43,344 bases of DNA from a virus, in IMG/VR virus record IMGVR_UViG_3300009073_000022, positions 1-43,344 of that record. One strand, 5' to 3'. Positions within the stretch are counted from its first letter, which is position 1. The number at the start of each line of letters is the position of its first letter. Both the position numbers and the translations under genes were made by a program. The notes below the pieces were generated by a model. It did no database searches. It saw only the letters and a list, made by a program, of their open reading frames with translations, and was not told the DNA's origin. This document shows positions 12,995-42,665 of this stretch, piece by piece.

Positions 12995-13534
12995 ATGAAT
13001 ACTAACGATTTATTAGAAACTAATTTAATTTGTACAGTGCTTGAGGGTAGTCATGCATATGGAACAGTCATACCATCTTCAGATCTTGATATGCGCGGAA
13101 TTTTTTGTGGAAATCCAATTAATGTTAGAACACCATTTTTTCCTGTTAGGGAAATAGAGGTTGTTGAAGATGAAGATACTAAGTATTTTGAACTTAATCA
13201 CTTTATGCGCTTATTGCTGGATCAAAATCCAAATATTGTACAGATGTTATGGGTACGCAATCAGGACATTATAAAATCAACTGAAGCATATGAGCTATTA
13301 AGATCACGTAGGGACAATTTTTTATCATCCAAAATAGCTTTCACAACAGCAGGATATGCAGATTCTCAATTAAAAAGAATTAAATCATCAAAAAAACATG
13401 TAAACTACACCGATCAATTACATTCATTATCAACCGTTTTAACAAAAGCTTTGAAAGTGGGTGATATTGATCATACATGGATAAAAAACAATTGTGGTGA
13501 TCAAGTATTGGACTATATAAAAAATGAAAAATGA
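12995..13534 (+). CDS. Nucleotidyltransferase (RlaP/YcgL-like), amino-terminal half of a split gene
   Basis: This 179-residue protein holds the catalytic half of a Pol-beta-type predicted nucleotidyltransferase. The signature is EGSHAYGTVIPSSDLDMRG: the GS loop and the metal-binding Asp30 and Asp32. It continues with the family block LDQNPNIVQMLWV and the GYADSQLKRIKSSKK helix, which in intact relatives is followed by a linker and a helical C-terminal half. Here the frame ends after about 20 further residues, and a homing endonuclease gene begins inside its last codons. The missing half is the gene at 14509-15219. The family transfers nucleotides to unknown targets. The two halves may reassemble in trans; alternatively the gene is broken. 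Confidence 0.85.
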   Translation: MNTNDLLETNLICTVLEGSHAYGTVIPSSDLDMRGIFCGNPINVRTPFFPVREIEVVEDEDTKYFELNHFMRLLLDQNPNIVQMLWVRNQDIIKSTEAYELLRSRRDNFLSSKIAFTTAGYADSQLKRIKSSKKHVNYTDQLHSLSTVLTKALKVGDIDHTWIKNNCGDQVLDYIKNEK

Positions 13535-14546
13535 TGAGTTGTTATTTAGAATCAACAATGAATTAATTCGAAAAGATGGAAAATTAAATGCACCCCTTTT
13601 AAACTTAAACTCTAAATGTGGGGATTTAATTTCATCTATTATAAAACATACGCATTATTTAAATAGTGATGCGACTATAAGCCAAAGAATATGGCATATC
13701 ACAAAAAATGTTCACACTACACCAAAATGTTGGTGTGGGAAAAATTCGTTGTGGATAAATCCAAAATATTCAAAATATTGTTCTCAGGTTTGTGCAACTA
13801 CTTCATTAGAAGCAAGACAGAGAACTAAAAAACAATTTACAGGGGTTAAATTGTCAAAAGAACGCATAGATAAAATTATAAAAAGAAATACTGGTTCTAA
13901 ACGTTCTATCGAATGTAGGAAAAAACTTAGTGATGGTAAATTAGGCAAAAAAAATCCACAATACGGTAAAAAATCATGGAACGCTGGGCTGTATGGAACT
14001 GATAATCCAATGTTTGGAGTTAAAAGACCCGGCACCGGATTGAAGGGTAAAGACAATCCATCATATGGAAAATCACCTCCCCTCGGCACAGGCTTTGGAA
14101 TAAATGGAAAATTCAACGAAATACATTTTAGAAGTAGTTTAGAATTGTTGTATCTCATGTATTGGTATTCAACAAATATTATAGTAATTTCCGCAGAATC
14201 GTCAGATTTTAGAGTTAAATATTCCGATGATAAAAATGATATTAGAGCATATACGCCAGATTTCTATATACCATCGTTGAATACAGTTTATGAAATAAAA
14301 CCTGAAAAATTACAAAAAAATAAAATAGTTCAGTTAAAATTTAATGCATTAATTGAACATCATAGTAATTTAATATGTAAATTAATTGGATATTCTGAAA
14401 TAAGTGATTTTATTTTTTCAATTGATTTAAATTCCACTATTAATAATTATATTGATAGTGGAGTTCTTAAAATTAACAAAAAACAATTTGAGAGGTTGCA
14501 AAAAAATTATGGAGATATCATTAGAGAATCTGCTAAACAAGTATGA
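13524..14546 (+). CDS. Homing endonuclease with NUMOD3 motifs and PD-(D/E)xK-like nuclease domain
   Basis: The 340-residue protein looks like a free-standing homing endonuclease. A zinc-finger-like site (Cys69, Cys71, Cys86, Cys90) is followed by NUMOD3-type DNA-binding repeats at about 110-185 (SKERIDK..., GKKNPQYGKK, TDNPMFGVK, KDNPSYGK). The carboxy domain has the layout of a PD-(D/E)xK nuclease: Glu207, YTPDFYI (Asp246) and YEIKPE (Glu257, Lys259). The gene overlaps the end of the amino half and the start of the carboxy half of the nucleotidyltransferase, so it sits exactly in the break. It is A-rich compared with its neighbours (long Lys/Asn/Ile runs), consistent with separate origin. 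No intron core fits outside the frame. Confidence 0.8.
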   Translation: MKNDELLFRINNELIRKDGKLNAPLLNLNSKCGDLISSIIKHTHYLNSDATISQRIWHITKNVHTTPKCWCGKNSLWINPKYSKYCSQVCATTSLEARQRTKKQFTGVKLSKERIDKIIKRNTGSKRSIECRKKLSDGKLGKKNPQYGKKSWNAGLYGTDNPMFGVKRPGTGLKGKDNPSYGKSPPLGTGFGINGKFNEIHFRSSLELLYLMYWYSTNIIVISAESSDFRVKYSDDKNDIRAYTPDFYIPSLNTVYEIKPEKLQKNKIVQLKFNALIEHHSNLICKLIGYSEISDFIFSIDLNSTINNYIDSGVLKINKKQFERLQKNYGDIIRESAKQV

Positions 14547-15219
14547 TGCTCCAGATAATCATATTAATGATTGTTTGAAATTATGTATTCCGAGGCAAGA
14601 GTGTTATATTCATTTAATTCAGTGGTTCGCGGATAATAAAGTTATGCCGAATACATTTGATATAATGACATACAGCAATAATCATAGATTTATAAGTTAT
14701 GGAAATGATTTGTATGGAATGTACGACTGGAATAAATTTAAATTATTTAATCCAGATGGTTCGATTAAAGATAATTTTGATGGCTCAAGAGAATCACTGG
14801 GACAACCAAAGGCGATTGTTAAATTAAATAGATCTAAATGGACAGATGATAAAAATTTCTATGACAAATATTGGTTATGGAAAAAAAATAGAAATGAAAA
14901 ACGAGCTAAGTTAGAAGCTGAATTTTTTTATGATACAAAAAATGCTATGCATCTCGTCAGACTTCTCAGAATGGGCTACGAAACACTTACTACAGGACAA
15001 GTAAACGTGTTCAGAGATGATGCTTCAGAGCTGTTAGAGATTCGCAATGGCTCTCTCACATACGACGAAATATTAGCATATGCAGATACTATGGACATTA
15101 AAATAAAAGAAGCGTATGATAATACCGAACTGTCCCGCAAACCTAATGTTAAATTAGCGGCACAGACTATAATGGAAGTACAAGATTTAATTTGGAATTC
15201 AAATGACAATAACAAATAA
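14509..15219 (+). CDS. Nucleotidyltransferase (RlaP/YcgL-like), carboxy-terminal half of a split gene
   Basis: The 236-residue protein matches the second half of the same nucleotidyltransferase family: the WLWKKNRNEKRAKLE helix, then DTKNAMHLVRLLRMGYE, LTTGQVNVFRDDASELL, IRNGSLTYDEIL and AYADTMDIKIKEAYDNTEL. These are consecutive family blocks and none is present in the upstream half. The start at 14509 is preceded by a GAGAGG ribosome site inside the endonuclease gene, so this half has its own translation start. That argues for a functional two-part enzyme rather than debris. The frame also opens further upstream (14452), but without such a site. Its stop overlaps the start of the next gene by 17 bases. 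Confidence 0.85.
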   Translation: MEISLENLLNKYDAPDNHINDCLKLCIPRQECYIHLIQWFADNKVMPNTFDIMTYSNNHRFISYGNDLYGMYDWNKFKLFNPDGSIKDNFDGSRESLGQPKAIVKLNRSKWTDDKNFYDKYWLWKKNRNEKRAKLEAEFFYDTKNAMHLVRLLRMGYETLTTGQVNVFRDDASELLEIRNGSLTYDEILAYADTMDIKIKEAYDNTELSRKPNVKLAAQTIMEVQDLIWNSNDNNK

Positions 15220-18231: not shown

Positions 18232-18806
18232 CCGACAATGACGAGATTATCAGCAATTCAGAGGTTGGAAAGAAAGCCGTACCATCATTTAAAGATACAT
18301 TGAAAGAATCATTAAAGACTCCTGAATCTGATAAACCAAACATGCCAGTAAAGGTAAAAGCTGAGACTAAAAAGCCAGCAGCTAAAAAACGAGCACCACG
18401 CAAAAAAGCGAAACCAAAGGTTGAGGAAATATCTGCATCTGATTTAAAAACATGGATAGAAGGTGTTGAATCTATGCAAGATGATGATTGGCATCCATCA
18501 CCAGAGCAATGGCAAAAAATTAGAGATAAGATTGCATCACTGGAAACTACTCCATCGGTTGTGCAACAACCTGTTGCATCTAAAGTTCAACAAACATCAA
18601 CGCAACAAGTAATTCACGAAGCACCAGCTCAGCAAGCACCAGCCCAATCTTCATTGATCATTCATGAAGCACCACCAACACAAGCAGGGCCATCAGTGAT
18701 ATTGCCTAATGAAAATCCATTAAAGCCAGTTAATGCAGATGGACTTGTTGATGTTTCACCTAAAGTTAAACCTGACGGATCGTATGAATCATCATTCGGT
18801 TCGTAA
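18228..18806 (+). CDS. Low-complexity hypothetical protein
   Basis: Not recognised. The 192-residue protein has three parts: a Lys/Ala/Pro-rich basic stretch (about residues 45-65, KKPAAKKRAPRKKAK), a small conserved-looking helical domain (DLKTWIEGVESMQDDDW then EQWQKIRDKIASLE), and a Gln/Pro/Ala-rich disordered tail (QQVIHEAPAQQAPAQ, with IHEAP occurring twice). The basic stretch would bind nucleic acid. The last 23 bases overlap the start of the DnaE-like amino half in another frame, which implies translational coupling between the two. It may be a linker or tether protein for the neighbouring replication factors, but that is only suggested by position. Confidence 0.6.
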   Translation: MTDNDEIISNSEVGKKAVPSFKDTLKESLKTPESDKPNMPVKVKAETKKPAAKKRAPRKKAKPKVEEISASDLKTWIEGVESMQDDDWHPSPEQWQKIRDKIASLETTPSVVQQPVASKVQQTSTQQVIHEAPAQQAPAQSSLIIHEAPPTQAGPSVILPNENPLKPVNADGLVDVSPKVKPDGSYESSFGS

Positions 18807-19320
18807 TAGAATTGTTTGGTATGATGGGACCACTACTGTCCCATCGTCAGAGATAGAAGAATATATTCAGTATGCAAATACTGGAAAAGTGTTTGTGGAT
18901 GAAATGACTGATGATCTACGACAATATAATAAATTTGCATCAGACGCAAAAATCACAACACGCGAATCAGACTTATCAATAACACCTAAATGGTTATTGC
19001 CAAAATATTTTATTGATATGGATCTACAATCTCTTATAGATCAACAACTTGCAGACGAAATAGATAAATCTAACTTCTCTGACGATGAAACCAACAAAAG
19101 AATTGATAGAATTGATGAAGAAATGATCGCTTATCGAGAATTTAATTTAATTCCAGTATTACATGCTATTTTATATATAATAAATAGGTTTGAGGAAAAG
19201 GATATAGTCTGGGGTGTGGGCCGAGGTAGTTCGGTAAGCTCATACGTATTGTATTTAATGAAAGTCCATGATGTGGATAGTGTTGAATATGATCTAGATT
19301 TTAATGAATTTATAAGATAG
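18784..19320 (+). CDS. DnaE-like (Pol III alpha) palm, amino-terminal half
   Basis: This 178-residue protein ends with a segment that matches the start of the palm of bacterial DNA polymerase III alpha: RIDEEMIAYREFNLIPVL corresponds to the helix before it, then WGVGRGSSVSSYVLYLM matches GPGRGSaaGSLVAYaL, and VHDVDSVEYDLDFNEFIR matches ITdiDPLrfDLLFERFLN. In DnaE the very next residues are PERVSMPDFDxDF, the catalytic DxD. Here the gene stops, and the DxD opens the gene at 26410. There is no PHP domain and the first 90 residues are not recognised. I chose the ATG at 18784; longer upstream frames lack a ribosome site. Role unknown: a trans-assembled minimal polymerase fold or a decoy. Confidence 0.75.
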   Translation: MNHHSVRNRIVWYDGTTTVPSSEIEEYIQYANTGKVFVDEMTDDLRQYNKFASDAKITTRESDLSITPKWLLPKYFIDMDLQSLIDQQLADEIDKSNFSDDETNKRIDRIDEEMIAYREFNLIPVLHAILYIINRFEEKDIVWGVGRGSSVSSYVLYLMKVHDVDSVEYDLDFNEFIR

Positions 19321-22514: not shown

Positions 22515-22522
22515 TATAAATA
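22515..22522 (+). promoter_or_regulatory. T4-type late promoter (TATAAATA)
   Basis: A perfect late octamer, 45 bases before the tail-fibre-like gene at 22567, in the gap after the replication operon. Confidence 0.8.
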
Positions 22523-22566: not shown

Positions 22567-24651
22567 ATGACAATTTATTCAATTACATCAACAGATGCAT
22601 CAAAAACCATTGTAGTCAATGCAGGAACAACTAATGGTCCTGTTGTTGCTCCAGCCAATATCGATACGGATCTGATTCTATATGGACAAGGTTCTTTCAA
22701 TTGGGGTCAAGGAATTGAACAAAACTTGTTCAGAATCATGGAATCATTTGCTAGTCCAGCAAAAAATCCACTTCAACCAGACGAAGATCAAGTACCAGAT
22801 CCAGAACCAGTTGCCGCCAATCCAGATTTATATGGAATAAAAAATCCAGTTATAGGACAAACATGGTTTAATAAATCAAACAAACGTTTATACGTATGTA
22901 CCATCGCCGCCACAGAAACGGAAGATGCTGTGTGGAAATTAGATGGTGAAGGACGATTTTTAGATTTAAAGGGTGGTGAATTATCCGGAAATGTAAAAAT
23001 TATTCGACCGGCTGGTAATGGTGGAACTGGAATAGAATTAATTAGTAAAGATGAATTATCTCCAATGTATGTTCAATTTGAAGATTTATCTGCTGTTAAA
23101 GGGCGATTGTTTGTTGAGCAAGAAGCGGGTACGGGAGTAGATACGCTAAAATTTGAAAAACGTGTTAATGAAACAATTAAAAACTCTATACACATGCACG
23201 ATGGATATATCGAAACTCACGCCACTCAAGGTAAGATACGAACTCCATCCACCATAGCATCTGATACAGGCCAAACACTAGCAACCAAAAATTATGTTGA
23301 TTTTGAAATAGCAGCTAATGGATTTGATGATGGTATATTTGAAGATGATATTACAGTATCTAAACCGAATGCTGGATTTTATGCAAAATCAACTAATAAC
23401 ACAACAGATCCAAAATTTGTATTAGCAGATTCGTCTGGTAACAAAGGAAAATTTTGGTTGAGTCAAGAAGGAACTGCTGATGTTTTAGTTCTTAGTAAAG
23501 GTATTTTTAATGGTGCAGAGGTTACAGGAACCACACAAAATGAAATTAGAATGACTGATACTGGTGTAGATTTTACTAAAAATATTACATTAAAAAATGC
23601 ATTTCCTGTTATGACAATAGAATCAACAAGTCCAACATCTGGATCTATTTTATACTTTAAAGATAATCAAGCTGTGAAAGCTGAATTATCAATTTTACCA
23701 ATAAATGGATCTGGCAGTATTGATGATTTAGTTTTACAGAAAAAAGCTGGATCTAATATTTTAAGTGAACTTAGAATGAAAGATGGATTGACAACTATGA
23801 GTCAACCATTTGAAGTACTAAAATCAGATGATATTATTAGATTAAACCCAGCAGTAGATAGTGCAAATGTCTCATTAAGTTCAAATGCAGGGGCACGACT
23901 TGCTAAGTTTGGTTTAAATTCAGATGATTCAGCAGTGATTGAATACACTTCAGGCACTACTGATTCAAGAGTTACATTAGAGCAAAATGGCACAGTTACC
24001 ATTACAAAACCTAGAGCCACAGATCATGCCGATGTCGAAGTAACCGAAGATGAAAGACTAATAACTAAAAAATATGCTGATAGTAGGGGTTATATAGGTA
24101 TAGGTAGAAATGTAAGCCCTAATAGGCTAGCATTAGAGAAAAATGGTACGTCTTGGAGAACTTCATCCAATTTTGTTGACATTCCAACTTCAACTGCAAA
24201 TCTTAATTCGTTCCCTACTAATGGAACTAGTAATGCAGTAAATAAAACATATAGTACGGTAGCTGATATAAAAACATCTGGTTTAGCAACTGTATTAATT
24301 CGAATATCTTTTAGTTATGCATTAAGAGTAGCAGGCGGCGGTGAAGGGTCTAGTGGATTTTTTACATTTGCACCAGTGGATATACAATATCGAAGTTCTG
24401 CTGTTCCAGTAGGTGCATGGACAGATTTAGTATTGCCGGGTATTCCTATGGATACTTATCAGAATGTATATTCTGGTCAATATTTCGCTACAACCACGGC
24501 CCAAATAAACGCAGCTCAATCGGAAATAGAATTTAGATTCGGTAATACATCAAATGAATTTGTATTTGGTCCTATCAATAGAACAGGCACCATAGTTGAA
24601 AAATTTGATGCTGTTCTTATAGATAATGCAACATTTAACGTGGAATATTAA
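22567..24651 (+). CDS. Tail-fibre-like structural protein (694 residues)
   Basis: A long beta-rich protein under a perfect late promoter. The amino domain (about residues 1-140) carries the T4-like fibre blocks LILYGQGSFNWGQGIEQNLFRIMESFA and VIGQTWFNKSNKRLYVC. The same blocks occur in the gene at 24882. Repeats follow: a LDLKGGELSGNVKI block, ATKNYVDFEIAANGFDDG, then mixed Gly/Ser/Asn-rich stretches, and a second TKKYADSRGYIGIG. The last third has the unrelated beta-rich ending expected of a receptor-binding tip. I infer a virion fibre or fibre-like protein. Which fibre is not clear; it lies inside a replication region rather than with other tail genes. Confidence 0.7.
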   Translation: MTIYSITSTDASKTIVVNAGTTNGPVVAPANIDTDLILYGQGSFNWGQGIEQNLFRIMESFASPAKNPLQPDEDQVPDPEPVAANPDLYGIKNPVIGQTWFNKSNKRLYVCTIAATETEDAVWKLDGEGRFLDLKGGELSGNVKIIRPAGNGGTGIELISKDELSPMYVQFEDLSAVKGRLFVEQEAGTGVDTLKFEKRVNETIKNSIHMHDGYIETHATQGKIRTPSTIASDTGQTLATKNYVDFEIAANGFDDGIFEDDITVSKPNAGFYAKSTNNTTDPKFVLADSSGNKGKFWLSQEGTADVLVLSKGIFNGAEVTGTTQNEIRMTDTGVDFTKNITLKNAFPVMTIESTSPTSGSILYFKDNQAVKAELSILPINGSGSIDDLVLQKKAGSNILSELRMKDGLTTMSQPFEVLKSDDIIRLNPAVDSANVSLSSNAGARLAKFGLNSDDSAVIEYTSGTTDSRVTLEQNGTVTITKPRATDHADVEVTEDERLITKKYADSRGYIGIGRNVSPNRLALEKNGTSWRTSSNFVDIPTSTANLNSFPTNGTSNAVNKTYSTVADIKTSGLATVLIRISFSYALRVAGGGEGSSGFFTFAPVDIQYRSSAVPVGAWTDLVLPGIPMDTYQNVYSGQYFATTTAQINAAQSEIEFRFGNTSNEFVFGPINRTGTIVEKFDAVLIDNATFNVEY

Positions 24652-24652
24652 A

Positions 24653-24901
24653 ATGAATAGTATTTTAATTTATGAAAAAGATTCTGGAATTGTTCAATCA
24701 GTGGTGAACAATAATATATCAGATATAAAATCTGATAATTATAAAAATTCACTTAAATCTGTGGAATCTAAATTACCCAAAGGCTTTGCCGCTGTCTATT
24801 TTAAAATAGAAGGTAATGAAATGCCCACTAAAATAAAAGTATCAAAAGATAAAAAAGTTAAAGTAATGGAACTATGTGAATATGGCATACAAGATAAATA
24901 A
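24653..24901 (+). CDS. Small protein between two fibre genes
   Basis: Not recognised. The 82-residue protein is Lys-rich and contains two short beta-like parts (NSILIYEKDSGIVQSVVNNN and FAAVYFKIEGNEMPTKIKV). It starts one base after the fibre gene stop with a weak GGA site, and its end overlaps the next fibre gene by 20 bases, so it is coupled to both. In many T4-like phages small proteins between fibre genes help fibre folding or attachment; that is only a positional guess here. Confidence 0.6.
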   Translation: MNSILIYEKDSGIVQSVVNNNISDIKSDNYKNSLKSVESKLPKGFAAVYFKIEGNEMPTKIKVSKDKKVKVMELCEYGIQDK

Positions 24902-26409: not shown

Positions 26410-26997
26410 ATGGATATAGACATAGATACTAAAACAGGCTTCGATCCATCCACCGTATTTCCTGACATTGTGCAAGCCTCCATGCTTGTCGATGATGGGT
26501 ATAAGAAACATAACGTTGGTTGGTATTTCCAAAACATGCCCAGCGATCCAGTAACAAACCTTGCAGCAATCCCATATGACGAAGCAGAACAATATGGATT
26601 CTTTAAAATAGATTTCCTATCAATTAATGTATATGATAATTTTAATTCTAAATCAGAAATTAGAGAATTGCTTAAATTAGAACCAAACTGGGATTTGTTG
26701 TTGGATAAAGAGAACTATCTTAATCTATTCCAGATTCATCGCTATTTTGATGTAGTTAGCCGTATACGACCACGATCAATACCAGAGTTAGCAGATTGCA
26801 TTGCACTCATAAGACCCGGCCCACGCTCTCTCTTAGACTCGTATGTTAATTCTAATCCCGAAGATAGAATTAAAATTAGACCATTAATTTATGATGGGAA
26901 TTGGGAAGGGTTTTCATTTAAGAAAAGTCATGCCCATGCATACGCATTGACAATAGTATTACAGCTTCATTTAATTGATATGGATAAAATTATTTAA
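26410..26997 (+). CDS. DnaE-like (Pol III alpha) palm, carboxy-terminal half
   Basis: The 195-residue protein begins MDIDID, which fits the catalytic PDFDxD of DNA polymerase III alpha: Asp2 and Asp4 take the places of the two metal-binding aspartates. YGFFKIDFLSINVYDNF (Asp68) matches the third aspartate block KFDFLGLrtLtii. Then LFQIHRYFDVVSRIRP and ADCIALIRPGP match VFQLESRGMKdLIKRLkP and IALVALfRPGP, and GFSFKKSHAHAYALTIV matches GFNKSHsaAYalv. The regions between these blocks (most of the fingers) are deleted, and no tau, clamp or OB parts exist. The partner half ends at 19320. Convergent with the next gene, whose stop overlaps by eight bases. Whether it polymerises DNA is open. Confidence 0.82.
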   Translation: MDIDIDTKTGFDPSTVFPDIVQASMLVDDGYKKHNVGWYFQNMPSDPVTNLAAIPYDEAEQYGFFKIDFLSINVYDNFNSKSEIRELLKLEPNWDLLLDKENYLNLFQIHRYFDVVSRIRPRSIPELADCIALIRPGPRSLLDSYVNSNPEDRIKIRPLIYDGNWEGFSFKKSHAHAYALTIVLQLHLIDMDKII

Positions 26998-30123: not shown

Positions 30124-31428
30124 ATGAGTACAGCAACTAAAACAAAACCAATGGACGTTAATACTACATTGAATGACAAGATTGACTTTTGGATTGAACA
30201 TGATCTGAATGTATTGTTCACCGGCACACAGGGTGTTGGTAAATCAACCATTATGGAAGAATCCTTCCGTCGCAATAACGTCAACTATAAGTATTTCACT
30301 GCATCGTTGATGGATCCGTACCTAACACTAATCGGCGTTCCTAAAGAACAGAAGAACGAAAAGACTGGTGAATCATTTCTTGAATACATCAAACCTAAAG
30401 AATTTAGCACCGATGCTGACTATGGTGTAGAAGCTATTTTCTTCGACGAATTTAATCGAGCTGGTCCTGCCGTTCGAAATGCCGTTATGGAATTGATTCA
30501 ATTCAAATCTATCAATGGTGTTCGTCTTCCAAATCTTCGCTTTGTTTGGGCAGCTATCAACCCTGCCGATGATGAAGAAACATTTGATGTTCATGAACTT
30601 GATCCAGCACAAAAAGATCGATTCCATGTTCAATACGTTCTTGAGAACAAGCCTTGTCCTATTTATTTTAAAGATAAATTTGGTAGTCACATTGCTAAGG
30701 TAGCAATCAAGTGGTGGAACGCTATTCCAGAAGAAATCAACAAACACGTATCTCCACGTCGCTTAGACTACGCACTAGAAATGTATCAGCGTGGTGGTGA
30801 TGTAAGTGATTCACTAGTTCCAGATTCACGTCCAGCCGATCTTATTCGTAAGCTACAGGATATGACAGCAGGTGAAGGTTCCAACATTGATCGTTGGGCA
30901 TCTGATCCACAATCATTCTTGAATGAGATAACAGATCGAAATGATCCAATGCCTGACGATAAGGTTGTTGAAGCGTTTCGTGATCTTAAAAACTACTCTA
31001 TCGATATGTCGGTTGATTTGGTTGCAAGTCTGCTACCAGAACAGCTTCGAGCATTGACACAGCAGCACGATACTGTTGATATACTACTTCGTAACATGAA
31101 CGGTATTAAGAGTGAGACTGTTAAATCAGCGCTTGAAGAAGGTACTTGGTACGAGCAACACCGAGACTTTGTTTATGATCGTTGTGAAAAGGCATCATCA
31201 GCAGAATTCTCTAAAGCATTCAAAGATGGTGATCTTGATGGTATGTTACAACACAAAGGCACTGGTTATACGTATCAAGTGATCCTGATGTGGGCCAAAG
31301 ATAACATGGATGAATTTCCAATGGATATCATGCGAGACATGTACAAAGAGAAGCCAAAACTTCTTGTATACCTGACACAGTGGGATTATGAATTGTCAGC
31401 CAAACTGTTTGAAGCTAAAAGCGTTTAA
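30124..31428 (+). CDS. MoxR-family AAA+ ATPase
   Basis: The 434-residue protein is a MoxR/RavA-type AAA+ ATPase. Walker A is GTQGVGKS at 34-41, Walker B is AIFFDEFNRAG at 104-114, and the sensor and lid parts (FVWAAINPAD, DPAQKDRFH) match the family. The carboxy region (about 260-434) is helical and unassigned. MoxR proteins work with a VWA-domain partner to remodel or load cofactors into protein complexes; such a partner is the next gene (31572). The pair is preceded by a strong terminator and a 180-base leader with no clear promoter, and is followed by another terminator. In a phage this probably aids virion or metalloprotein maturation, but the target is unknown. Confidence 0.88.
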   Translation: MSTATKTKPMDVNTTLNDKIDFWIEHDLNVLFTGTQGVGKSTIMEESFRRNNVNYKYFTASLMDPYLTLIGVPKEQKNEKTGESFLEYIKPKEFSTDADYGVEAIFFDEFNRAGPAVRNAVMELIQFKSINGVRLPNLRFVWAAINPADDEETFDVHELDPAQKDRFHVQYVLENKPCPIYFKDKFGSHIAKVAIKWWNAIPEEINKHVSPRRLDYALEMYQRGGDVSDSLVPDSRPADLIRKLQDMTAGEGSNIDRWASDPQSFLNEITDRNDPMPDDKVVEAFRDLKNYSIDMSVDLVASLLPEQLRALTQQHDTVDILLRNMNGIKSETVKSALEEGTWYEQHRDFVYDRCEKASSAEFSKAFKDGDLDGMLQHKGTGYTYQVILMWAKDNMDEFPMDIMRDMYKEKPKLLVYLTQWDYELSAKLFEAKSV

Positions 31429-40378: not shown

Positions 40379-40386
40379 TATAAATA
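40379..40386 (+). promoter_or_regulatory. T4-type late promoter (TATAAATA)
   Basis: A perfect late octamer followed by AAAG, 26 bases before the gene at 40412. Confidence 0.75.
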
Positions 40387-40813: not shown

Positions 40814-40874
40814 GGAGTGCTTGAGAAAGCACCCTTTAAGTGACCTACTCAAGTACTCCCTAATTCTCAGGGAG
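40814..40874 (+). promoter_or_regulatory. Structured leader with two competing hairpins over the ribosome site
   Basis: Hairpin A: GGAGTGCTTGAG (40814-40825) pairs with CTCAAGTACTCC (40848-40859), 12 bp with one G-U. Hairpin B: CTCCCT (40856-40861) pairs with AGGGAG (40869-40874), 6 bp with a 7-base loop. They share 40856-40859, so only one can form. AGGGAG is the ribosome site for the ATG at 40881. A therefore frees the site and B hides it: the arrangement expected of a translational switch. Confidence 0.6.
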
Positions 40875-40880
40875 AATAAA

Positions 40881-41087
40881 ATGGAAGATAATAATTTAGA
40901 ACTATTGGAATCATGCTTAGCACGATTGCAGAAGATTGGTGCGCGTGAACCATTACCAACACAGTACTTTTTCAAAGAAGCACAGGAAATCATACGTGGT
41001 TCTGTAGATGAAGCGTATAAGGCTGGTGTGGCCGATGGAAAGTCAGGTGCAAAGAAGCCATCTGTTAGTGAGTACATTATTAAATAA
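40881..41087 (+). CDS. Small hypothetical protein behind a structured leader
   Basis: Not recognised. The 68-residue protein is one or two helices (LELLESCLARLQKIG, YFFKEAQEIIRGSVDEAYKAG) with a Gly/Lys end. I chose the ATG at 40881 because AGGGAG lies at ideal spacing. An in-frame ATG at 40812 would add 23 residues but has no ribosome site and would cover the hairpin leader. The unusual feature is upstream: the ribosome site is paired in one of two exclusive hairpins. A GC-rich structured region follows the stop. Confidence 0.55.
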   Translation: MEDNNLELLESCLARLQKIGAREPLPTQYFFKEAQEIIRGSVDEAYKAGVADGKSGAKKPSVSEYIIK

Positions 41088-41091
41088 GATT

Positions 41092-41166
41092 TTCGCGCAA
41101 ACTTAGCGCGAACGATGGGTAAGATTAACATTAACTGGTTAATCCCAACAATTATGGGGATTGTTG
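41092..41166 (+). ncRNA. Structured intergenic region, candidate non-coding RNA
   Basis: Three perfect 7-bp hairpins stand in a row: TTCGCGC/GCGCGAA (41092-41112), GATTAAC/GTTAATC (41123-41144) and CAACAAT/ATTGTTG (41146-41166). An alternative AATCCC/GGGATT pairing (41141-41146 with 41157-41162) conflicts with the second and third. No protein frame covers it and no T-loop sequence supports a tRNA. A riboswitch-like or small regulatory RNA is possible; it is upstream of the gene at 41221. Confidence 0.45.
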
Positions 41167-41184
41167 AGAATCGGAGCCGAGGGA

Positions 41185-41214
41185 TTGAGGGGGCATCTGA
41201 TATTGTGTTAGAAT
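41185..41214 (+). promoter_or_regulatory. Sigma70-type promoter candidate
   Basis: TTGAGG and TAGAAT are 18 bases apart. The predicted start falls at about the ATG of the next gene (41221), which has no ribosome site. Confidence 0.4.
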
Positions 41215-41220
41215 AGTTGT

Positions 41221-41547
41221 ATGAAGTCAAAGTTTAATACCTTTAGAATTAGAGTAGACTTAATATCTGAAAAAAATCCAGAAAAAGATAGTTATCCATA
41301 CACATACAATACTGCAAGAGATAGCATTTTAAAAATGTCGGATTTCCAATATAATAGTTTAAATACTGCAAGAGCGGAAACATCTATAATAAGTTTAGAA
41401 ACAACAGAAATCATGTTTGAACAAATTAAATCTGATCCTGAATTTACAAATGCATTTACTAATTTTAGAATTGAAATTGATGTAAACGGCGAATGGTTTG
41501 AAATTGAATATTTAGATTCTTTAATAGAAGATCTGGCCGCAATTTAA
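41221..41547 (+). CDS. Hypothetical protein, possibly leaderless
   Basis: Not recognised. The 108-residue protein begins with a strand-like stretch (FNTFRIRVDLISE), continues with NTARDSILKMSDFQYNSLNTARAE (NTARxS/E occurs twice) and ends with a strand (FRIEIDVNGEWFEIEYLD). An amphipathic alpha/beta fold is likely. There is no ribosome site before the ATG, and a promoter candidate ends seven bases upstream, so translation may be leaderless or depend on the upstream RNA structure. It is followed by a fresh promoter for the GMP reductase gene. Confidence 0.6.
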   Translation: MKSKFNTFRIRVDLISEKNPEKDSYPYTYNTARDSILKMSDFQYNSLNTARAETSIISLETTEIMFEQIKSDPEFTNAFTNFRIEIDVNGEWFEIEYLDSLIEDLAAI

Positions 41548-41550
41548 TGC

Positions 41551-41579
41551 TTGATTAACGATTACCTTTTCTATATTAT
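41551..41579 (+). promoter_or_regulatory. Sigma70-type promoter for guaC
   Basis: TTGATT and TATTAT are 17 bases apart. ATTACCTTT in the spacer and AAAGGTAAT before the start codon form a 9-bp inverted repeat that brackets the -10 box; only the right half is in the mRNA. Confidence 0.65.
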
Positions 41580-41606
41580 CTTCAATTAACATAAAGGTAA
41601 TAGAGA

Positions 41607-42665
41607 ATGCGGATTGTCCACGAACCAGCTTTAGATTTTAGTGATGTATTAATTCAACCCAAGCGATCATTTGGAATAGAGTCCCGCTCTCAAATTAAAG
41701 TTAATCGTCCTTTTAAATTTCTCCATAGCGAAACAGAATACGATAGTATTCCCATCATCGCAGCAAACATGGACACTGTTGCAACCACGTCAATGGCATC
41801 TGCCCTGTTAAAGCACAATATCAGTACAGCTCTCCACAAGCATTATTCATCGAAAGAATTAATTGAATTCTTTACAGGTTATAACAATAAAAGAAGATCG
41901 CAATTATCAATCGCTCCGATTTTTTATACAATGGGAACATCCACAGGAGAGTATGATAAATTTACAGAATTAACTAATCAAACCCACATCCCATATGTTT
42001 GCATTGATAATGCAAATGGCTATACTGAAAAATTTAATGATTTCATTAAATACTTTCGAGAAAATAATCCTACAGTTACAATCATGGCTGGCAATGTAGT
42101 CTCACCAGAGATGACAGAACAGTTATTGATTTCAGGTGCTGATATAGTTAAATGTGGCATCGGAAGTGGCAGTTCTTGCATTACTAGAAAAGTAACAGGA
42201 GTAGGTCTACCACAACTATCTGCAACAATCGAATGCGCAGATGCTGCCCACGGAATCAGAGGTCACATTTGTTCGGATGGTGGAATGACATCAAGTGGTG
42301 ATATTGTTAAAGCCTTTGCTGGTGGAGCAGACTTTGTAATGCTTGGTGGGATGTTATCAGGCCACAAAGAAATAGGATTACCTGAAATAGTAATAGACGA
42401 TAAAGAATTTTATGAATTCTATGGAATGAGTTCATCTAGTGCAATGGAAAAACATGTTGGGCATGTTGCCTCTTATAGAGCACCAGAGGGAAAGCGAGTT
42501 TTAATTCCAGCTAAGGGATCGGTTGATAAAACAATCAATTCTATTTTAGGTGGAATACGTTCTGCATGTACTTATGTTGGTGCCAGCGAACTTAAAGAGT
42601 TAAGTAAGTGCACAACATTCAGACTAGTTAATAATCAACTAAACACAATTTACGGAGACAGCTAA
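41607..42665 (+). CDS. guaC: GMP reductase
   Basis: GuaC deaminates GMP to IMP with NADPH, letting guanine nucleotides be turned back toward adenine nucleotides. The 352-residue protein tracks the bacterial enzyme (347 in E. coli) end to end: FSDVLIQPKRS, PIIAANMDTV, STALHKHYS, VCIDNANGY, the catalytic Cys191 in GIGSGSSCITR (E. coli Cys186), DGGMTSSGD, GGADFVMLGGML, FYGMSSSSAM, and the final GGIRSACTYVGAS. It is a GMP reductase rather than an IMP dehydrogenase because it lacks a CBS domain and keeps the short form. A purine-shifting enzyme suits an AT-rich genome. It has its own promoter and an AAGG site. Confidence 0.95.
   Translation: MRIVHEPALDFSDVLIQPKRSFGIESRSQIKVNRPFKFLHSETEYDSIPIIAANMDTVATTSMASALLKHNISTALHKHYSSKELIEFFTGYNNKRRSQLSIAPIFYTMGTSTGEYDKFTELTNQTHIPYVCIDNANGYTEKFNDFIKYFRENNPTVTIMAGNVVSPEMTEQLLISGADIVKCGIGSGSSCITRKVTGVGLPQLSATIECADAAHGIRGHICSDGGMTSSGDIVKAFAGGADFVMLGGMLSGHKEIGLPEIVIDDKEFYEFYGMSSSSAMEKHVGHVASYRAPEGKRVLIPAKGSVDKTINSILGGIRSACTYVGASELKELSKCTTFRLVNNQLNTIYGDS

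Follow-up and report, generated by a model that had tools for sequence, protein, structure and literature searches.

A predicted three-hairpin RNA element in an intergenic gap of a T4-like phage, conserved in one relative

Introduction

What is the role of a dense run of hairpins lying in a gap between two phage genes? This question is raised by a 133-base gap in the IMG/VR record IMGVR_UViG_3300009073_000022, which we analyzed over its whole length of 43,344 bases (hereafter the window). The source is an uncultured phage, T4-like by its gene content. The window carries the genes rIIA, rIIB, PRPP synthetase and ATP-dependent DNA ligase, together with genes for UvsX, single-strand binding protein, topoisomerase II, UvsY and clamp-loader subunits. 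To our knowledge, few structured RNAs have been described in T4-like phages besides tRNAs and start-site leaders. A preliminary description of the gap, made from the DNA letters alone, favored a small RNA or a riboswitch-like control element over a terminator.

Results

Hairpins and gene setting

The gap is bordered upstream by a 68-aa gene (40881–41087, plus strand), for which protein family searches matched no family, and downstream by a 108-aa orphan gene (41221–41547, plus strand) that directly follows the element and has a gene-like codon score. As noted previously, this gene starts (ATG 41221) without a Shine-Dalgarno sequence. Further downstream lies a guaC-like gene of the GMP reductase/IMPDH family (41607–42665, plus strand; Pfam IMPDH, E 9.8e-67), whose product shares 54% identity with Salmonella guaC. 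The gap was also said to be richer in G and C than its surroundings, which holds against the following gene (about 41% versus 25–29%) but not against the preceding stretch 40950–41079 (43%). An imperfect inverted repeat, GGAGTGCTTGAG/CTCAAGTACTCC, is found at 40814–40873, just 5′ of the ribosome site of the 68-aa gene. Elsewhere in the window, short ORFs at 18733–19320 and 26410–26997 match separate DNA polymerase parts (PHROGs 11127 and 11778), and these sequence matches suggest that the DNA polymerase is divided among several genes lying about 7 kb from each other. A gene for an RlaP-like nucleotidyltransferase (12995–15219) appears as two fragments that flank a NUMOD3 homing-endonuclease ORF; an Rfam search detected no intron family there.

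Four hairpins are predicted in the gap on the plus strand. P0 (41092–41112) is a perfect 7-bp stem, TTCGCGC/GCGCGAA. P1 (41123–41144), also a perfect 7-bp stem with a loop of 8, appears in both the MFE and the centroid fold with a pair probability of about 0.88, followed by P2 (41146–41166; 7–8 bp, pair probability about 0.77). P3 (41170–41201) consists of 6 bp, one bulged base (41195), 3 bp and a G-rich GA...GGG loop, and its pair probability of 0.84–0.99 is the highest among the four. An 11-nt block, TGGGTAAGATT (41116–41126), precedes P1, its last four bases being the start of that hairpin. The three perfect 7-bp hairpins in a row first described at 41092–41166 are indeed present and were equaled in 0 of 5000 dinucleotide-preserving shuffles of 41088–41220, with two hairpins reached in 3 of 5000. 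The folding energy of the plus strand is only mildly low (z about −2.0).

A DNA search gave a single copy of the element in each of the two contigs that carry it, and a repeat family was dropped on these grounds. ARAGORN detected neither tRNA nor tmRNA in the window, and a tRNA reading was likewise abandoned. Another group of three 7-bp hairpins is located at 24646–24737 within a 91-aa ORF (fold z −2.1); no relation to the element at 41116–41201 was found.

A related phage carries the same module

The only relative found with the element is the 44-kb IMG/VR contig IMGVR_UViG_3300002054_000061 (L002). It shares with the window a gene order of 248-aa gene (59% identity), ligase (60%), small gene, a gene homologous to the 68-aa one (56% identity across 54 aa) and guaC (62%). 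The small gene between the L002 ligase and the 68-aa homologue looks unrelated. In L002, a 188-base gap separates the 68-aa homologue from guaC, and the 108-aa gene is missing there. This gap contains TTGGGTAAGATT and begins with three successive hairpins in both the MFE and the centroid fold. Its folding energy z ranges from −4.1 to −5.9, the latter value for the whole 188 bases. The order P1–P2–P3 emerges independently from each phage's own MFE fold. The TGGGTAAGATT block is identical at L002 5831–5841, and the 9-mer GGGTAAGAT is found a single time in either contig.

In this one related phage, the element appears to be conserved more in its pairing than in its sequence. All 46 countable cells of the model-fitted alignment of the two sequences are standard pairs. 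Eight of the 22 shared pairs are changed on both sides (two in P1, one in P2, five in P3), a count that represents one comparison of two homologues in an alignment fitted to the window's structure. Compensatory support was lost altogether when the structure was slid by 1–3 columns as a control; MAFFT alignment alone leaves P2 and P3 unaligned. P1 additionally shows one wobble change and is extended in L002 by an inner helix, and P2 is kept. The architecture of P3 is the same in both phages, with 6 bp, a one-base 3′ bulge, 3 bp and a loop that starts with GA and finishes in G's. P0 has no counterpart at L002 5813–5830. The unit must hence be redrawn from its first description, which included the non-conserved P0 and missed P3, the hairpin richest in compensatory changes. 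Since compensatory changes maintain the stems at the syntenic place in L002, a structured RNA between the two genes is well supported.

Covariance models connect the two sites reciprocally. With a model from the window only, the best match in the 44 kb of L002 was the syntenic gap (21.8 bits, E 0.0017, next match 0.13), and with a model from L002 only, the best match in the window was 41114–41205 (20 bits, E 0.011, next match 0.91), all of these E-values being rough. Limited to one strand of the 188-base syntenic gap, the former E-value becomes about 4e-6 by our own arithmetic on the rough figure. A chance match of that score at the syntenic place is unlikely. A contrary reading is that the gap holds no RNA element at all, its hairpins being inverted repeats acting as operators on the DNA level, part of a 33-aa peptide gene, or accidental. 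In line with this, a promoter-like site overlaps the element, as does an open frame of 33 codons (41115–41216), which stops 4 bases short of the 108-aa gene; 3% of shuffles contain a frame of this length. However, half-site sequences differ among P1, P2 and P3 and between the phages while pairing is kept, which argues against this reading. The frame, for its part, qualifies the earlier statement that the region codes for nothing, but it scores as non-coding (−0.11 versus +0.18 to +0.26 in real genes) and is closed by a stop in L002. Altogether, we regard the absence of an RNA element as extremely unlikely.

Further homologues were sought in viral contigs with both flanking genes, guaC, the ligase, the 248-aa gene and two DNA patterns as queries, in GTDB genomes with the 248-aa gene, and in a phage collection by DNA and protein; none but L002 was found in these sets. 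Roughly 780 kb around guaC and ligase genes of other phages gave no covariance-model match. Pattern matches besides L002 were judged to be chance, for the first pattern by fold and sequence only, and for the second with two of four loci read as coding. Model matches in Xanthomonas phage XacN1 (19.3 bits) and contig L145 were rejected since the conserved 5′ block or P3 was missing or the match lay within an ORF, and contig L119 was set aside as a spurious protein match.

Strand and transcription signals

Five wobble pairs, two in the window and three in L002, are G-U on the plus strand and A-C mismatches on the minus strand. Plus-strand folds agree between the two phages, whereas minus-strand folds disagree. 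On its minus strand, the window features look-alikes of a promoter (41230–41202) and of a terminator, formed by the P0 stem (41112–41092) followed by AATCTTATTT; both are missing from L002. Because of the wobbles, the agreement of the folds and the lack of these minus-strand signals in L002, the predicted RNA is placed on the plus strand. A small RNA of the minus strand, running from the weak promoter to the terminator-like stem with its T-rich tail, would match the lower folding energy of that strand in the window (z −4.0). Yet with P0 and promoter absent from L002, minus-strand folds that differ and wobbles valid on the plus strand only, it is very improbable.

On the plus strand, no T-run follows the first stem, as was correctly noted. 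Neither the window scan nor L002 revealed a terminator or T-run behind the element on this strand, in agreement with the earlier view that it is not a terminator, and an intrinsic terminator was dropped as an explanation because a GC-rich stem with T-run is found on the plus strand of neither phage.

T4 late promoters have the sequence TATAAATA (PMC3014915). Four exact copies are present in the window (2757, 22515, 33548 and 40379), all on the plus strand and at gene ends. That at 40379–40386 stands at the head of the element's gene run and has its L002 counterpart at contig position 30813; the copies at 22515 and 40379 both have counterparts in L002, at gene junctions that appear to be equivalent. 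In L002, an exact TATAAATA is located just 5′ of the element, overlapping the end of the 68-aa homologue. In the window, the nearest exact copy is the one at 40379, and beside the element there is only ATTAAATA at 41079 with two mismatches. Both phages also have a possible sigma70-like promoter, TTGAGG-18-TAGAAT (41185–41214, plus strand) overlapping P3 in the window and TGGACA-17-TATAAT 3′ of the element in L002, although at 9/12 and 11/12 these are consensus matches and as such weak evidence. From the window site, the 108-aa gene could possibly be transcribed as a leaderless mRNA.

These signals bear on two further readings of the element. It might be a 3′-end or intercistronic structure that stabilizes or processes the upstream mRNA of the 68-aa gene and is no leader. 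The 68-aa gene is the neighbor common to both phages, ending 18–28 nt before the conserved block, and the downstream neighbor differs between them. However, the L002 late promoter overlaps the end of the 68-aa homologue, which suggests an RNA starting there. No terminator was found either, and we consider this reading quite unlikely. The main rival is a free small RNA that acts in trans and is produced late in infection, with a 3′ end generated by processing and the unpaired TGGGTAA block as seed. Its own late promoter in L002, the compact structure and the conserved unpaired 5′ block would all suit such an RNA, as would a position relative to guaC that is not fixed, the 108-aa gene intervening in the window. 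Against it stands the lack of an intrinsic terminator behind P3 on the plus strand of either phage, and a free small RNA hence seems unlikely.

Discussion

Our comparison of the two contigs demonstrates conserved structure, strand preference and synteny. We propose that 41116–41201 encodes a structured RNA module of the plus strand that belongs to a late transcript and is most likely a cis-acting 5′ leader or intercistronic element, and give this explanation about an even chance of being correct. From 5′ to 3′, the module would comprise the 11-nt block, P1, P2 and P3, and the T4-like phage would transcribe it as part of a late message. In L002, no more than about 20 nt would separate it from the start of an RNA made from the TATAAATA late promoter. 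Because no terminator follows the element, the RNA probably continues downstream, in the window into the 108-aa orphan gene and guaC, and in L002 directly into guaC. As a stable structure acting in cis, the module might either shield the late message from decay or offer P3, with the G-rich loop, for binding by a protein. A point against a leader is that both phages have a sigma70-like promoter that follows or overlaps the element and from which the downstream gene could be transcribed without it. We may also speculate about an unreported class of phage regulatory RNA in which P3 senses a ligand or a phage or host protein and times a late purine-metabolism gene, but find this improbable.

Metabolite control of the purine gene guaC by a riboswitch is more doubtful still. 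In L002, the element is located upstream of guaC, the start region of which is buried in strong structure, and CCCCC at the guaC start could pair alternatively with GGGGG near P3. This pairing, however, has no counterpart in the window, where an unrelated gene parts the element from guaC. Moreover, no Rfam match was obtained, and the element is missing from those guaC loci of other phages that match best. The competing AATCCC/GGGATT pairing described earlier does exist in the window (41141 with 41157 or 41181), but with probabilities of about 0.08 and 0.0 it is a minor state, at most 8% populated, and it is absent from L002. Of the original proposal, the structured RNA thus stands with its stems conserved in L002, whereas the switch is neither thermodynamically favored nor conserved, which leaves the riboswitch-like part with no specific backing.

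The guaC start deserves mention in its own right. At L002 5942–6009, a three-way junction (z −3.65) encloses it, with the ribosome site GGGGGA paired to CCCCC. The strong L002 sigma70-like promoter would start an RNA just past CCCCC and thereby free the ribosome site, as in T4 gene e (PMC3014915). This arrangement resembles the T4 start-covering leaders, but is a module separate from P1–P3. Upstream of the guaC ribosome site of the window, AAAGGTAA, lies its perfect complement, TTACCTTT, with a promoter-like site in between (41560–41610). With a fold z of −0.5, this is possibly a weaker version of the L002 device.

With its defined boundary, its strand assignment and a pairing model backed by compensatory changes, the element is open to direct probing. 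If it controls the stability or translation of late mRNA, it would add a further RNA-level layer to the timing of phage expression.

How does the element compare with known systems? No Rfam 15 family was matched at the gathering threshold, and the best matches (E up to 10) are far under the cut-off and cover mostly flanking bases. Purine-gene riboswitches share with it a structured RNA upstream of a purine gene, as seen in L002, but the element has neither a conserved switching pairing nor a known aptamer match, and a gene intervenes in the window. T4 RNAC and RNAD, two small RNAs with no known role, come from the tRNA region of T4 (PMC3014915). They are alike in being phage-encoded small RNAs without known function and are set apart by this origin; no tRNA genes were found in the window, unlike the T4 region encoding them. 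T4 also has structured translation-initiation leaders in genes e, soc, 49 and I-TevI (PMC3014915), and the likeness here is a leader RNA structure in a phage tied to TATAAATA late promoters. In the T4 leaders, however, a helix covers the Shine-Dalgarno sequence or AUG (PMC3014915), whereas P1–P3 cover no ribosome site. P3 ends at 41201, 19 nt 5′ of ATG 41221, and the element is thus no Shine-Dalgarno-sequestering leader. The three-hairpin element is a novel, if modest, extension of the set of structured RNAs known from phages.
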